NCBI GenBank assembly: GCA_902604055.1
Contig: CACKXA010000006.1
Location: 1 to 40,759, forward strand
Direction: 5' to 3'
Origin: an uncultured Pelagibacteraceae bacterium
GTDB lineage: Bacteria; Pseudomonadota; Alphaproteobacteria; Pelagibacterales; Pelagibacteraceae
DNA length: 40,759 nt
Positions 13,274-17,164 of the stretch are shown here, piece after piece. The notes below the pieces were generated by a model, which ran no database searches, had not been told where the DNA came from, and worked only from the letters and a program-made list of their open reading frames with translations. A program made the translations under genes and the position numbers. Each line of letters opens with the position of its first letter. Within the stretch, counting starts at the first letter, position 1.

Positions 13274-13287
13274 TTTGAATAAACTTA

Positions 13288-13315
13288 TTGAATCTATTTG
13301 TAAGAGTTTTATATT
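13288..13315 (+). promoter_or_regulatory. candidate tmRNA promoter
   Basis: TTGAAT (13288-13293) and TATATT (13310-13315) are separated by 16 bp in the gap between divergent thyX and ssrA. The transcript would start near 13322, at a short perfect hairpin AGTTGGTTTTCCAACT (13321-13336) that would form the 5' leader of pre-tmRNA and be removed in processing. Confidence 0.35.
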
Positions 13316-13342
13316 AATAGAGTTGGTTTTCCAACTATGACG

Positions 13343-13401
13343 ATAAACGAATTTCGTAATAAACATTACGGACGTGGGGGCAGTACCCACCACCTCCACC
13401 A
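13343..13401 (+). ncRNA. ssrA: tmRNA acceptor piece (permuted two-piece ssrA)
   Basis: The 3' end CACCTCC-A-CCA (13391-13401) pairs with GGGGGTG at 13414-13420 to form a 7-bp acceptor stem with one G-U pair. Just before it GTGGG (13374-13378) and CCCAC (13386-13390) form a T-arm-like stem whose loop lacks the normal TTC motif, as is usual in alphaproteobacterial two-piece tmRNA. A hairpin CGTAAT/ATTACG lies at 13355-13370. The 5' boundary is approximate. CCA is encoded in the DNA. Confidence 0.85.
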
Positions 13402-13413
13402 TTTACAACTTAT

Positions 13414-13579
13414 GGGGGTGAATTAGGATCGACGGGTGTCTAAAGGCTATTCTTTCGTACGAGATGGTTCCGACGTAACGGGCCAATTTACAAATGCTAA
13501 CGAAAGTTACGCACTTGCTGCTTAATTAACTTAGTTAATTAAGTTACGGGGTCCGGGGCACCTGGCAACAGAACGCCCC
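13414..13579 (+). ncRNA. ssrA: tmRNA coding piece, tag ANESYALAA
   Basis: It begins GGGGGTGAATTAGGATCGAC, the conserved alphaproteobacterial tmRNA 5' end. The resume region encodes GCT AAC GAA AGT TAC GCA CTT GCT GCT TAA (13496-13525), giving tag ANESYALAA after the tRNA-borne Ala. The ALAA end is the usual ClpXP degron. A hairpin AATTAAC-TTA-GTTAATT follows the stop (13524-13540). The piece ends in GGGGC...GCCCC (13555-13579). The permuted order (acceptor piece first) means the RNA is cut into two by removing the 12-nt spacer at 13402-13413. It works with SmpB to free stalled ribosomes. Confidence 0.92.
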
Positions 13580-13583
13580 TTTT
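13555..13583 (+). terminator. possible tmRNA terminator
   Basis: GGGGC (13555-13559) and GCCCC (13575-13579) can pair and are followed directly by TTTT. The hairpin is part of the mature RNA end and may also stop transcription. The right arm is the part repeated at 13762, 16395 and 17146. Confidence 0.45.
13561..13579 (+). repeat. tmRNA-end repeat, copy 1 (putative att site within ssrA)
   Basis: CCTGGCAACAGAACGCCCC, the last 19 bases of the tmRNA coding piece. Three further exact copies lie downstream in the same orientation. Identity with copy 2 extends to 24 bases (13558-13581 against 13759-13782). Confidence 0.9.
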
Positions 13584-13588
13584 AAAAT

Positions 13589-13756
13589 ATGATAAATGAG
13601 TTTTTTATATTCTGCGTTAAAGTCTTAGAAATAATTGGTGATGCAACTGGTATGGGCTATGAATTAGCTAACATTGTTATATTCGTTATTATACAGCCTG
13701 GGTTAATACTATTATTTTTTATACTTTGGAGAATGGAGAAAAAGAAGAAAGGTTAA
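13589..13756 (+). CDS. 55-aa single-span membrane peptide in the first cassette
   Basis: ATG at 13589, 55 codons, TAA at 13754-13756. The product starts MINEFFIFCVKVLEIIGDAT, has a hydrophobic span at about residues 27-47 (ANIVIFVIIQPGLILLFFIL) and a basic tail WRMEKKKKG, so a membrane peptide with the tail in the cytoplasm is likely. The start lies 9 bases after the tmRNA end and the stop 2 bases before the next long repeat, so the gene fills the segment between two repeats almost completely. No Shine-Dalgarno sequence is visible; expression may depend on tmRNA read-through. I do not recognise a family. Confidence 0.6.
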   Translation: MINEFFIFCVKVLEIIGDATGMGYELANIVIFVIIQPGLILLFFILWRMEKKKKG

Positions 13757-13761
13757 CTGCA

Positions 13762-13780
13762 CCTGGCAACAGAACGCCCC
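13762..13780 (+). repeat. tmRNA-end repeat, copy 2 (putative att site)
   Basis: Exact 19-base copy of the tmRNA 3' end, 201 bp downstream of copy 1 and within a 24-base identity (13759-13782). It contains only the right half of the tmRNA terminal hairpin, as expected for a displaced attachment site. Confidence 0.9.
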
Positions 13781-13824
13781 TTCCAAAGACTCAAAACTCC
13801 CGTTAAACAATAATTTTTAAAAAA

Positions 13825-13835
13825 GTGGTCACACT
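13825..13835 (+). repeat. GTGGTCACACT direct repeat, copy A
   Basis: An 11-base word repeated exactly at 14468-14478. The two copies flank the pair of orphan minus-strand genes. It may be an operator or an insertion boundary; function unknown. The stretch 13783-13876 around it has no other gene that I can support. Confidence 0.4.
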
Positions 13836-13876
13836 GGTGGCACAGTAAGAAAAGAAATTTTAGTGTGCGGGGGAAT

Positions 13877-14017
13877 TTAATGAATAGTTTTATCTTTGCT
13901 ATCTTGATCTTCAAAAAAATTATAAATATCTAATTCAACCCACTCAATTTCAGGATCATTTGTGTCTTGTGTGATTGTTTTTTTAGTGTACAGGATTTTC
14001 TCTTTTTCTTTAGTCAT
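13877..14017 (-). CDS. 46-aa acidic orphan protein
   Basis: Minus-strand ATG at 14015-14017, 46 codons, stop TAA at 13877-13879. It is preceded by a strong Shine-Dalgarno sequence, AAGGAG, a few bases before the ATG; such sites are scarce here, which supports real translation. The product begins MTKEKEKILYTKKTITQDTN and continues acidic (EIEWVELDIYNFFEDQD), soluble, with no Cys. It starts 10 bases after the stop of the 124-aa gene, so the two form an operon. No family is recognised. A small partner, antitoxin or regulator role is possible but unsupported. Confidence 0.6.
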   Translation of the reverse strand: MTKEKEKILYTKKTITQDTNDPEIEWVELDIYNFFEDQDSKDKTIH

Positions 14018-14027
14018 GCTCTCCTTT

Positions 14028-14402
14028 CTAATTCAACTTGTTTCTTTCGCAGTCCCTATCAATTGTTTGCCAGTCACCTTCCTCGAAAGGTATATTTATA
14101 TCGTTTAGAACTCTTTTAAGCTTCTCCAACCTGTCTGCACGCCCGTCAATATTTTTCAAAAACATACAAAACCATTTATAGGCAGATTTTTTTAAAAACT
14201 TTTTATCAATATTAATCCAATTTTCGAAGTCCATACATTGAGGGGTATTATAAGTATATTCATTATAACTTATCTTTTTTCCATCATCACTCAACGAATC
14301 TAACCAGCAACAAATTTGATTTTTTCCCTCATCAATAACTTGATAAGCTTCATAATGATCTGAAAGATCATCTGAATTAAAATCTAATTCTAGTTGTTTC
14401 AT
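14028..14402 (-). CDS. 124-aa orphan protein of unknown function
   Basis: Starts MKQLELDFNSDDLSDHYEAY. The protein is acidic, Asp/Lys/Asn-rich and soluble, with aromatic-rich stretches (YKWFCMFLKN, CCWLDSLSDD), four Cys, no signal peptide and no membrane span. I recognise no domain. It is divergent from the HNH nuclease gene across 124 bp that hold two inverted repeats, and is followed by the 46-aa gene. Lying inside the repeat-bounded unit, it was probably acquired with the nuclease/methyltransferase pair. Immunity, anti-restriction or regulatory roles are guesses from position only. Confidence 0.65.
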   Translation of the reverse strand: MKQLELDFNSDDLSDHYEAYQVIDEGKNQICCWLDSLSDDGKKISYNEYTYNTPQCMDFENWINIDKKFLKKSAYKWFCMFLKNIDGRADRLEKLKRVLNDINIPFEEGDWQTIDRDCERNKLN

Positions 14403-14428
14403 TTTTTGACTGTTGTTGAAGTTTATGC

Positions 14429-14444
14429 GTTAAAGAACTTTAAC
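14429..14444. promoter_or_regulatory. candidate operator, perfect inverted repeat
   Basis: GTTAAAG-AA-CTTTAAC, 7-bp arms with a 2-bp centre, lies in the 124-bp gap between divergent genes (14402 and 14527). Size and symmetry suit a dimeric repressor site that could control both directions. Confidence 0.4.
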
Positions 14445-14467
14445 AATTATAAATATATACAATAAAT

Positions 14468-14478
14468 GTGGTCACACT
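14468..14478 (+). repeat. GTGGTCACACT direct repeat, copy B
   Basis: Exact copy of 13825-13835 in the same orientation, in the divergent control region and adjoining the hairpin at 14479-14502. Confidence 0.4.
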
Positions 14479-14502
14479 ATGATATCTAGTTTTAGATGTC
14501 AT
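14479..14502 (+). promoter_or_regulatory. inverted repeat / hairpin before the HNH gene
   Basis: Arms ATGATATCTA and TAGATGTCAT with a GTTT loop, 10 bp with one G-U pair in the RNA, followed by ATTTTTAAAT. It lies 24 bases before the HNH start and could be a second operator, a leader hairpin or a weak attenuator. Confidence 0.35.
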
Positions 14503-14526
14503 TTTTAAATGGTATAACTCATTTAA

Positions 14527-15006
14527 ATGAAGAGTTCAAAAGCACAACTTGCCAAAAAAGAATTTCTTGATAAAGGAAATAAATTACCGATTTGTGTAAA
14601 TGATGGTTGTAATAACACTGTTGTTGTCAGGGAGTGGAAGTATTGGTCTTTTAAATCTGAATGTGGATCTTGCACTGATTGTAGAAAAAGAAAACTTTAT
14701 AAGATCATACAAGGAGAAAAAATAATTAAAAAGGGAACAAAGAAGACTATAAAAAACGATGTTATAATTCACAAAAAAGATTTCTGTGAAAATAACAACG
14801 GACATTTAGGTTTCTCTTGTCCAGTAAAAACTAATCTATGGAGCAACTTTCTTGAAAGTCTTGATCTTGATCATATTGATGGTGATCATATGAATAATAA
14901 ACCAAAAAATGTCAAAACTTATTGTAAACTATGTCACAATAGGAAATCAAAAGAAACAGGTGATTGGGATTCAAATAAACCATCAAGGAGAAATATAGAT
15001 ATATAA
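14527..15006 (+). CDS. HNH endonuclease, putative restriction enzyme
   Basis: 159 aa. The C-terminal HNH (beta-beta-alpha metal) motif is clear: LDLDHIDGDHMNNKPKN (Asp115-His116, Asn123/124), then LC-xx-CH (Cys133, Cys136, His137) followed by RKSKETGDW. N-terminal Cys23, Cys28, Cys46, Cys49 and Cys52 suggest a second zinc-binding site. The stop is one base before the methyltransferase ATG, a tight operon that argues for a type II restriction-modification pair. A homing-type HNH nuclease is the alternative. The start at 14527 has no clear Shine-Dalgarno sequence. Confidence 0.82.
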   Translation: MKSSKAQLAKKEFLDKGNKLPICVNDGCNNTVVVREWKYWSFKSECGSCTDCRKRKLYKIIQGEKIIKKGTKKTIKNDVIIHKKDFCENNNGHLGFSCPVKTNLWSNFLESLDLDHIDGDHMNNKPKNVKTYCKLCHNRKSKETGDWDSNKPSRRNIDI

Positions 15007-15007
15007 T

Positions 15008-16318
15008 ATGAAGTTATTTAAAGAAATTGGAATTAGGGAAAAAAAAGATTTATCTGACGCCAATATTTTAAAGGCGCTAAAAAAACTTGGTAAGTTAGAC
15101 AAAAAATTTAAAGACCAAGACTTACTTTTAAACCTAATTTCTTCAGAAAATAAAAATATTAGATACTATGCAATTAATAATCTTGCAAAAATTAATAATG
15201 AAAAATTACTAAAAAATTTTGAAAAATTTTTGTATCAAGAACCCACTTCTTATGTTCGGAGAGAAATTGCTTCTGCTATAGGTAGATTAAGAAGTAAAAA
15301 AGCGATACCTCTGATGAAGAAAATTATCAAGGACAAAGATCCTAATATAATACTTCAAGGCGTAAGAGGATTATTAGTATTTAAAAAAGATAAGGATATT
15401 CAAAATATTTTGAAAGGTTTAAAAAATCATCCTAATGAGATAGTACAAAAAGTAATTAATATAGAATTCTTTGATATGAATGAATACTCTTCCAAACACT
15501 CGTATTCTCCTGATAATTTAAAAAACTGTATTGCAAATGGAGATGTTATAAAATTATTAAAAAAGGTAGAAAATGAAAGCGTCCATCTTACTTTTACTTC
15601 ACCTCCGTATTATAATGCAAGAGACTATTCTATTTACAATTCTTATAACTCTTATTTAAAATTTTTATGGAATGCATTTAAAGAAGTGCATAGAGTTACA
15701 AAAGAAGGAAGATTTTTTATTCTAAACACATCTCCAATAATAATTCCAAGAACAGGAAGAAAATATTCAAGTATAAGATACCCCATACCATTTGATATAC
15801 ATCACGAAATGATAAAAATGGGTTGGGAATATGTTGACGATATAGTTTGGTTAAAACCTGAACCAAGTGCAAAAAATAGAGTCGCTGGATTTAATTTACA
15901 TAGAAAACCCTTAGCGTATAAACCAAATTGTGTAACAGAAACTTTGATGGTTTACAGAAAGAAAAGTAATAAATTAATTGACTGGATCTTTAAACAATAT
16001 TCTCAAGAAGTTGTTAAAAAAAGTAAAATTAAAGATGGTTATGAAACGTCAAATGTCTGGAAAGTTGACCCATCAAGTGACAAAAATCATTCAGCAGTTT
16101 TTCCAGTTAGTTTATGTGATCGAGTTATAAACTACTATTCGTTTGAAGGTGATCTTGTTTTTGATCCTTTTGCAGGCAGTGGATCTGTTGGAACATCTGC
16201 AATTAAAAACAAACGGTATTTTTTTCTTACAGAATTAAATAAAGATTATTTTAAATTACTTAAACAAAAATTTAACTCTAATTTATTTGATGATGTTAAG
16301 ATTGGAATTAAAGACTAA
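15008..16318 (+). CDS. HEAT-repeat / DNA methyltransferase fusion (class beta)
   Basis: 436 aa. Residues about 30-155 form alpha-helical HEAT-like repeats (IRYYAINNLAKI, VRREIASAIGRLRSKKAIPL, IILQGVRGLLVF). The catalytic part follows: motif IV TSPPYY (197-202), then the AdoMet motif I FDPFAGSGSVGTSA (385-398) and the ELNKDYF end. Motif IV before motif I puts it in the beta class of amino-methyltransferases (N6-adenine or N4-cytosine). The region between, 240-300, is the expected target-recognition part. It is directly downstream of the HNH nuclease gene and would protect host DNA from it. The HEAT domain is unusual for such small enzymes. Confidence 0.88.
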   Translation: MKLFKEIGIREKKDLSDANILKALKKLGKLDKKFKDQDLLLNLISSENKNIRYYAINNLAKINNEKLLKNFEKFLYQEPTSYVRREIASAIGRLRSKKAIPLMKKIIKDKDPNIILQGVRGLLVFKKDKDIQNILKGLKNHPNEIVQKVINIEFFDMNEYSSKHSYSPDNLKNCIANGDVIKLLKKVENESVHLTFTSPPYYNARDYSIYNSYNSYLKFLWNAFKEVHRVTKEGRFFILNTSPIIIPRTGRKYSSIRYPIPFDIHHEMIKMGWEYVDDIVWLKPEPSAKNRVAGFNLHRKPLAYKPNCVTETLMVYRKKSNKLIDWIFKQYSQEVVKKSKIKDGYETSNVWKVDPSSDKNHSAVFPVSLCDRVINYYSFEGDLVFDPFAGSGSVGTSAIKNKRYFFLTELNKDYFKLLKQKFNSNLFDDVKIGIKD

Positions 16319-16394
16319 AAACTCAATTTTAGTACACGAAGTTTTACTCGAAGTATTTTAAAAAGTGTTTATTTATGTTAATTATAAACTTGTG

Positions 16395-16413
16395 CCTGGC
16401 AACAGAACGCCCC
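16395..16413 (+). repeat. tmRNA-end repeat, copy 3 (putative att site)
   Basis: Exact 19-base copy, followed by TT as in copies 1 and 2. It lies 77 bp after the methyltransferase stop and bounds the nuclease/methyltransferase unit on the right. The bases between hold only a weak GTTTAT/ATAAAC inverted repeat (16367-16389). Confidence 0.9.
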
Positions 16414-16441
16414 TTAAGTAATAAAAATAGAGGTTGAAATT

Positions 16442-16489
16442 ATGTTTGTAGCGATGAATAGATTTAAAATTGTAAAAGTATTAATCTAA
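16442..16489 (+). pseudogene. remnant of an antibiotic-biosynthesis-monooxygenase-like gene
   Basis: An ATG with GAGG about 8 bases upstream opens a 15-codon frame, MFVAMNRFKIVKVLI, then TAA. The first dozen residues read like the start of ABM-domain (HmoA-like) proteins, where MFVAMNRF or similar is common. The similarity then stops at about 16478, at the very end of sodB, whose stop codon occupies 16481-16483. I infer the 5' stub of a gene cut off when sodB or the neighbouring DNA was joined here. It is short, so identity is tentative. Confidence 0.4.
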
Positions 16490-17074
16490 ATTTGACTCAA
16501 CAAATTCCCAGTTAATTAGTTTTTCATAAAAATTTTCTAAATATTCTGGTCTTCTATTTTTATAATCTACATAATAAGAGTGTTCCCACAAATCGCATCC
16601 TAAAATTGGTTTCATATTATGAACAAGTGTGTTTTCAGCGTTCGGAGTTTTATTAACTACTAATTTTCCATTATCAATAGATAACCAACACCAGCCAGAT
16701 CCAAACTGTGTAATACCTGCTTGTATAAATTGTTTCTTAAATTCTTCTACACTTCCAAAGTCAGACACAATTCTATCTTTTAATTTCTTTGGCATAGAGC
16801 CGCCTCCGCCTGGTTTCATACATTTCCAAAATAACATATGATTCCAATGTTGACTGGCGTTATTAAAGATACCTGATTTTGATTTATCTTTTGAAGAATG
16901 AATTATTATTTCCTCTAAAGTCATTTGAGACATATCCGAACCCTCAATAAATTTATTTAAATTAGTTATGTAAGTTTGGTGATGTTTTCCATAATGAAGA
17001 TCTAGTGTTTCTTCAGACATGATGGGTGCGAGAGCGCTTTTTAAATAATCTAGATCTGGTAACTTAAATGTCAT
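16481..17074 (-). CDS. sodB: superoxide dismutase (Fe/Mn family)
   Basis: 197 aa, usual length. The N-terminal helical domain has the metal His in LDLHYGKHHQTYITNLN (about residues 25-41) and the ASQHWNHMLFWKCM segment. The C-terminal domain has FGSGWCWLSI and the metal-binding D-x-W-E-H in CDLWEHSYYVDYKNRRPEYL. The overall sequence resembles bacterial FeSOD, but the metal cannot be fixed by reading alone. It is cytoplasmic (no signal peptide). It lies alone between tmRNA-end repeats 3 and 4, opposite in direction to the neighbouring cassette genes. Confidence 0.95.
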   Translation of the reverse strand: MTFKLPDLDYLKSALAPIMSEETLDLHYGKHHQTYITNLNKFIEGSDMSQMTLEEIIIHSSKDKSKSGIFNNASQHWNHMLFWKCMKPGGGGSMPKKLKDRIVSDFGSVEEFKKQFIQAGITQFGSGWCWLSIDNGKLVVNKTPNAENTLVHNMKPILGCDLWEHSYYVDYKNRRPEYLENFYEKLINWEFVESNLD

Positions 17075-17099
17075 GTGAAGTTATTACAAAAAATTGATT

Positions 17100-17110
17100 G
17101 ATAATGATAT
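17100..17110. promoter_or_regulatory. possible Fur-like half site upstream of sodB
   Basis: GATAATGATAT, 26 bp before the sodB start, matches one half of the classic Fur box (GATAATGATA...). The second half is degenerate. Iron control of an FeSOD would make sense, but a half-site match in AT-rich DNA is weak evidence. Confidence 0.2.
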
Positions 17111-17145
17111 CGCAATACTGACGCATTTTTAAAAAATTTTGAACG

Positions 17146-17164
17146 CCTGGCAACAGAACGCCCC
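17146..17164 (+). repeat. tmRNA-end repeat, copy 4 (putative distal att site)
   Basis: Exact 19-base copy, followed by CC instead of TT. It lies 71 bp upstream of the sodB start and 9 bp from the end of the glycosyltransferase gene, and marks the right end of the repeat array. Confidence 0.88.

Follow-up and report, generated by a model that had tools for sequence, protein, structure and literature searches.

Among known systems, the locus studied here resembles those of the CfrBI family; in the CfrBI system, the genes are divergent and their overlapping promoters are under methylation control (PMC12707154). Small plasmids of E. coli, Salmonella, and Klebsiella carry a CfrBI nuclease together with a methyltransferase that is 48% identical to the present enzyme over the catalytic domain but has a different N-terminus. 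A second point of comparison is Hpy99I, a small nuclease that belongs broadly to the HNH/Endo VII enzymes and lies beside a methyltransferase; 12 of 13 Helicobacter relatives adjoin a methylase (PMC6083498). Hpy99I nevertheless carries an Endo VII motif with a consensus other than that of classic HNH enzymes (PMC6083498), and it is likened to the present nuclease by description. In the additive flexible islands of Methylophilaceae, variable cargo likewise accompanies direct repeats that copy an RNA gene's end (PMC10872708), although that gene is a tRNA gene, whereas the present site is a permuted tmRNA in a SAR11-like host. A further likeness to the gene pair is an HNH-methyltransferase pair of viral contigs, for which we found no published name. 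Neither the combination of HEAT, methyltransferase, and HNH nor an HNH-methyltransferase system of marine phages turned up in literature searches.

The window, a 40,759-nt stretch of Pelagibacteraceae contig CACKXA010000006.1, contains an HNH nuclease gene and a HEAT-methyltransferase gene, both open and on the same strand (Table 1). An earlier note on this DNA had described an HNH gene that stops one base before the methyltransferase gene and a HEAT region that precedes a class-beta domain; the reading frames, Pfam, and AlphaFold2 agree with this description. Separate, adjacent nuclease and methyltransferase genes are the arrangement of a type II system. The methyltransferase is of the CfrBI-family type, but the nuclease beside it is an HNH protein, and the PF09516 nuclease of that family was found neither in the window, where no remnant was detected, nor in the assembled part of the genome (74% complete). 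The pair shares its HNH family (identity up to 62%), gene order, and tight spacing with the viral pair, but the viral methyltransferase lacks HEAT and belongs to another clade. We consider it likely that the locus encodes a hybrid type II restriction-modification pair, in which a CfrBI-type HEAT-methyltransferase is joined to a phage-type HNH nuclease.

Table 1. Positions of the gene pair, its domains and motifs, and the surrounding tmRNA site within the window
Feature	Position	Strand	Basis or remark
HNH nuclease gene, 159 aa	14527..15006	+	open ORF; stop codon 15004-15006
HNH core LDLDHIDGDHMNN, residues 112-124	14860..14898	+	conservation in 41-sequence alignment
HEAT-methyltransferase gene, 436 aa, CfrBI-type class-beta DNA aminomethyltransferase	15008..16318	+	
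HEAT solenoid, residues ~17-155	15056..15472	+	Pfam HEAT_2, AlphaFold2 model, structure matches
Catalytic domain, residues 172-433	15521..16306	+	Pfam, structure matches, sequence
Motif IV TSPPYY, residues 197-202	15596-15613	+	sequence
Motif I FDPFAGSGS, residues 385-393	16160-16186	+	sequence
Permuted alphaproteobacterial tmRNA (ssrA), insertion target	13284..13582	+	Rfam RF01849 E 4.9e-63; ARAGORN
tmRNA 3'-end direct repeat, left border of the pair's segment	13762..13780	+	exact 19-mer
tmRNA 3'-end direct repeat, right border of the pair's segment	16395..16413	+	exact 19-mer
Additional tmRNA-end repeat	17146..17164	+	exact 19-mer
Superoxide dismutase gene	16481-17074		in next segment, 16414-17145
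124-aa ORF in the pair's segment, divergent from HNH gene	14028..14402	-	

Pfam detected HEAT_2 (E 1.7e-26) and N6_N4_Mtase (E 3.7e-38, residues 192-419) in the methyltransferase. Structure prediction, which had been proposed as a check, bore out both of these domains. The AlphaFold2 model of the methyltransferase (mean pLDDT 85.5) consisted of a HEAT solenoid over residues ~1-160 and a class-beta fold over residues 172-433. The best structural matches of the solenoid were designed alphaRep/HEAT proteins (Z 14-17), and the catalytic domain matched TTHA0409 (Z 26.8), CcrM (Z 24.5), and M.PvuII (Z 21.6).

The earlier note had regarded HEAT repeats on a methyltransferase as an unusual domain order. 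A rare architecture was rejected, however, as HEAT-methyltransferase relatives were confirmed in 307 genome stretches. The best 80 of these 307 came from Bacteroidota, Chloroflexota, Patescibacteria, DPANN archaea, and other groups, and 74 of the 80 loci also had a CfrBI-family nuclease, nearly always as the immediate neighbor. Absence of the HNH gene from most loci with such a methyltransferase had been named in advance as a sign of an orphan methylase. That absence was found among the HEAT-bearing relatives, with a CfrBI-type nuclease in place of HNH; it does not point to an orphan methylase, since a nuclease is present both ways. The odd feature of the locus is the pairing and not the domain order.

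The closest relative, with a methyltransferase 84% identical to that of the window, was found in the Pelagibacteraceae single cell AG-907-M07 (L177). There, a CfrBI nuclease gene lies divergently upstream of the HEAT-methyltransferase gene, elsewhere on the chromosome, with neighboring genes that are typA-like and groEL-like as judged from their sequences. The L177 nuclease was detected at E 4.2e-30 and served as the positive control for the search that found none in the assembled part of the window's genome. At E 1e-40, no HEAT-methyltransferase was found in 396 sampled other genomes of the family, though L177 carries one, or in 168 other genomes of the genus.

Matches of the window HNH protein to Pfam, PADLOC, and PHROG were all weak, and the Pfam HNH match reached 14 bits, below the curated cut-off. 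Despite this, the HNH assignment is secured by 64 viral homologues. In a 41-sequence alignment, 35 columns were invariant, the HNH residues among them, and the window protein kept all of them; the core is followed by the invariant N128 and by TYCKLCH (131-137). The predicted structure (pLDDT 88.2) placed the HNH fold at residues 82-155. The HNH domain thus has both its catalytic residues and its fold. Residues 1-81 form a Cys-rich, zinc-ribbon-like N-terminal part, in which the conserved pairs C23/C28 and C46/C49 may bind zinc. Solved structures provided no good whole-length match; the HNH half alone aligned, over residues 82-157 and with Z up to only ~4.

Several modification-dependent enzymes use HNH domains (PMC12707154), and the present protein could be such a type IV-like enzyme, or a nicking enzyme, acting independently of the methyltransferase. 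No modification-reader domain of known kind was detected in the 159-aa protein, and a nuclease that cut the methylation mark made by its neighbor would be self-harming. We regard this explanation as highly improbable.

A scan of IMG/VR recovered relatives of the window HNH on 64 contigs, with 35-63% identity over the best segment. In 52 of the 64 loci, the gene directly 3' of the HNH gene encoded a class-beta methyltransferase without HEAT, of ~265 residues, that matches the catalytic domain of the window enzyme; a methyltransferase was counted as immediately next if it matched the window enzyme at E < 1e-20 and its start lay no more than ~60 bases from the end of the HNH gene, which it mostly overlapped, usually by a few bases. 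The earlier note's reading as a nuclease-methyltransferase pair is thereby supported. A search from the methyltransferase side found an HNH gene at 59 of 80 viral loci. The viral contigs include near-duplicates, so these counts are not independent (39 distinct methyltransferase sequences among 51). The window methyltransferase is probably not an orphan: the HNH gene that adjoins it is a conserved neighbor of its superfamily in viruses.

The window HNH itself was not found elsewhere in cellular or plasmid DNA: bacterial and archaeal genome contigs gave 46 pattern matches and no confirmed one, and the searches of 246 other genomes of the family, of plasmids, and of the L177 genome were negative. 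Among annotated phage isolates, matching HNH proteins were only 29-45% identical. One viral pair (L060, 2835-6339) lies between psbA and psbD on a contig of probable cyanophage origin, these genes being judged from their protein sequences, and its methyltransferase had no match among the annotated phage isolates at E 1e-30. The viral HNH-methyltransferase pair thus appears to be unrepresented in the annotated phage isolate collection. The pair occurs in many viral contigs, and we found no description of it in the literature; phages could turn it on host DNA or on rival phages. As a separate observation, about 20 viral pair loci (L041, L052, L054, L055, L065, L076, and others) also encode, within ~1.7 kb, another class-beta methyltransferase that is distantly related.

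Homing nucleases of phages are commonly of the HNH class, and the window HNH might be a free-standing homing endonuclease that landed by chance upstream of an effectively orphan methyltransferase. The position of the L060 pair recalls the homing endonuclease F-CphI, which lies beside psbA in cyanophage S-PM2 (PMC6083498). In the phage collection, however, neither the window HNH nor the L060 HNH had a cyanophage match at E 1e-5. The 12 unpaired viral HNH loci are also relevant: contig ends cut 3 of them, but the other 9 stand alone. Those stand-alone genes that were placed on the tree form one clade nested within the paired ones, apart from the distant L093, so that their solitude looks secondary. 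Further, the partner at the 52 paired loci belongs to a single methyltransferase family; the two genes usually overlap and the genome contexts vary, and we judge chance landing of a homing endonuclease to be unlikely.

The two genes of the hybrid pair differed in their phylogenetic placement. In a quick methyltransferase tree, which contains some long branches, the window enzyme grouped with that of L177 (SH-aLRT 100), deep among CfrBI-paired HEAT enzymes and separate from the viral HNH-paired clade. In the HNH tree, the window protein fell within the viral HNH radiation (SH-aLRT 95). Because the methyltransferase is thus of cellular, CfrBI-paired descent, the HNH of viral descent, and the CfrBI nuclease not found here, the simplest reading is that the HEAT-methyltransferase changed its nuclease partner. 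Such a swap would not be viable unless the new nuclease cut where the resident enzyme protects. If true, the locus would offer a clear example of a type II system whose nuclease was replaced in nature; likely donor and resident forms are both available, namely the viral pair and the SAR11 relative with its HEAT-methyltransferase and CfrBI nuclease.

The junction of a viral-type HNH with a HEAT-methyltransferase was seen once, in a 74%-complete assembly of 45 contigs, and could instead reflect a decayed or assembly-made couple, in which the HEAT-methyltransferase is a regulatory orphan and the adjoining HNH gene is dying or misjoined. Methyltransferases that lack a counterpart nuclease have been reported from Pelagibacter (PMC9516812). 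The window HNH also has a long branch, with D91N and C147W at otherwise nearly invariant residues, and could by these signs be decaying. Against decay, both reading frames are intact and every invariant HNH column is kept, as are the HNH catalytic residues and the methyltransferase motifs. The two genes, 1 base apart, are about as closely coupled as those of the viral pairs, and exact tmRNA-end repeats frame the segment on either side. A decayed or misjoined couple is therefore considered improbable, and we infer that the HNH and the methyltransferase are cognate and act together.

Target-recognition regions usually diverge between methyltransferases of different specificity. Over the putative target-recognition stretch (residues 246-350), identity of the window enzyme with viral HNH-paired enzymes was 48-53%, and with the plasmid CfrBI-type enzyme it was 49%; at the SAM-binding end, identity was lower in these comparisons (32-44%). 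Higher identity at residues 246-350 than at the SAM-binding end is expected if the target is shared; the support is moderate, because viral and plasmid enzymes, when compared with each other, show roughly equal conservation of both regions (39-43% against 42-48%). The methyltransferase groups may share a target, and the two unrelated nucleases may act at that same site. If true, two unrelated nucleases would have been exchanged around a single conserved methylation target. The recognition site of CfrBI is CCWWGG, and by analogy our guess is a target resembling it. CCAAGG seemed depleted relative to the reversed word in HNH-paired phages. After Markov correction, CCWWGG ranked about 10th of 64 degenerate palindromes, and phages without the HNH gene were similarly depleted; avoidance of CCWWGG was therefore non-discriminating, and we draw no inference from it.

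In the proposed working of the hybrid pair, the HEAT-methyltransferase would methylate an amino group at the target and thereby protect host DNA. The HNH nuclease directly upstream, probably co-transcribed, would replace the usual CfrBI-family nuclease and cut the same target when it is unmethylated, as a defense against incoming DNA. The pair would have entered the genome as cargo, by insertion at the tmRNA 3' end. With regard to its source, aquatic phages, a probable cyanophage included, may carry a complete system of HNH and CfrBI-type methyltransferase, from which a SAR11 cell joined the nuclease to a HEAT-methyltransferase of the same specificity; we hold this scenario tentatively, at somewhat short of an even chance.

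The HEAT solenoid had been suggested to serve target recognition. Viral enzymes paired with the same HNH family lack HEAT, so that HEAT is not needed for the HNH partnership, and such a role in this pair is not supported. Judged by these gene pairs, HEAT is dispensable both for pairing with the viral-type HNH family and for basic catalysis. It may instead stabilize the enzyme, bind DNA nonspecifically, or make protein contacts. HEAT-methyltransferases were present on three viral contigs (L097-L099), one of which also had a CfrBI nuclease. In L097 (3158-4846), helix-turn-helix, HEAT, and catalytic domains are combined in a single viral methyltransferase chain, downstream of which lie another protein and a further methyltransferase.

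The location of the pair between tmRNA-end repeats, claimed previously, was confirmed by exact 19-mers at both borders. The tmRNA end recurred exactly three times, with a chance expectation of 0. Of 169 genomes of the genus, 132 contained the same 19-mer, 61 of them in 2-5 copies, and these genus-wide arrays hold other cargo, in agreement with the suggested acquisition at the tmRNA. Across 20 array regions the cargo was varied and included superoxide dismutase. Restriction systems, which the earlier note had called scarce in streamlined SAR11-like genomes, were found at this tmRNA site in two further members of the genus, of type I in L271 and type III-like in L274. No obvious integrase was present among the listed reading frames of the arrays; the single tyrosine recombinase gene found in this assembly lies on another contig.

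The 124-aa reading frame in the segment of the pair had no Pfam, PADLOC, or PHROG match and is probably separate cargo, because its homologues sit in the tmRNA arrays of other genomes. It is flanked by a 15-base direct repeat, AAAAGTGGTCACACT at 13821-13835 and AAATGTGGTCACACT at 14464-14478, upstream of the HNH gene; this repeat is a possible operator and possibly a product of chance.

The arrays are cassette-like (13561-17164 in the window; L269-L288), with exact copies ~0.15-6.4 kb apart and small, varied cargo. Superoxide dismutase genes were found between tmRNA-end repeats (exact or with one mismatch) in several genomes, for example at 2909-3502 in L276 and 3927-4520 in L278, and may be mobile cargo. 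Many otherwise unlike minus-strand cassette genes, often near a repeat, start with a near-identical signal peptide (MKKLLAIVVLGLLWSGN-like). Examples were seen in L269, L270, L273, L276, L278, L282, L283, and other arrays, as if a promoter and signal peptide were common to the cassettes.
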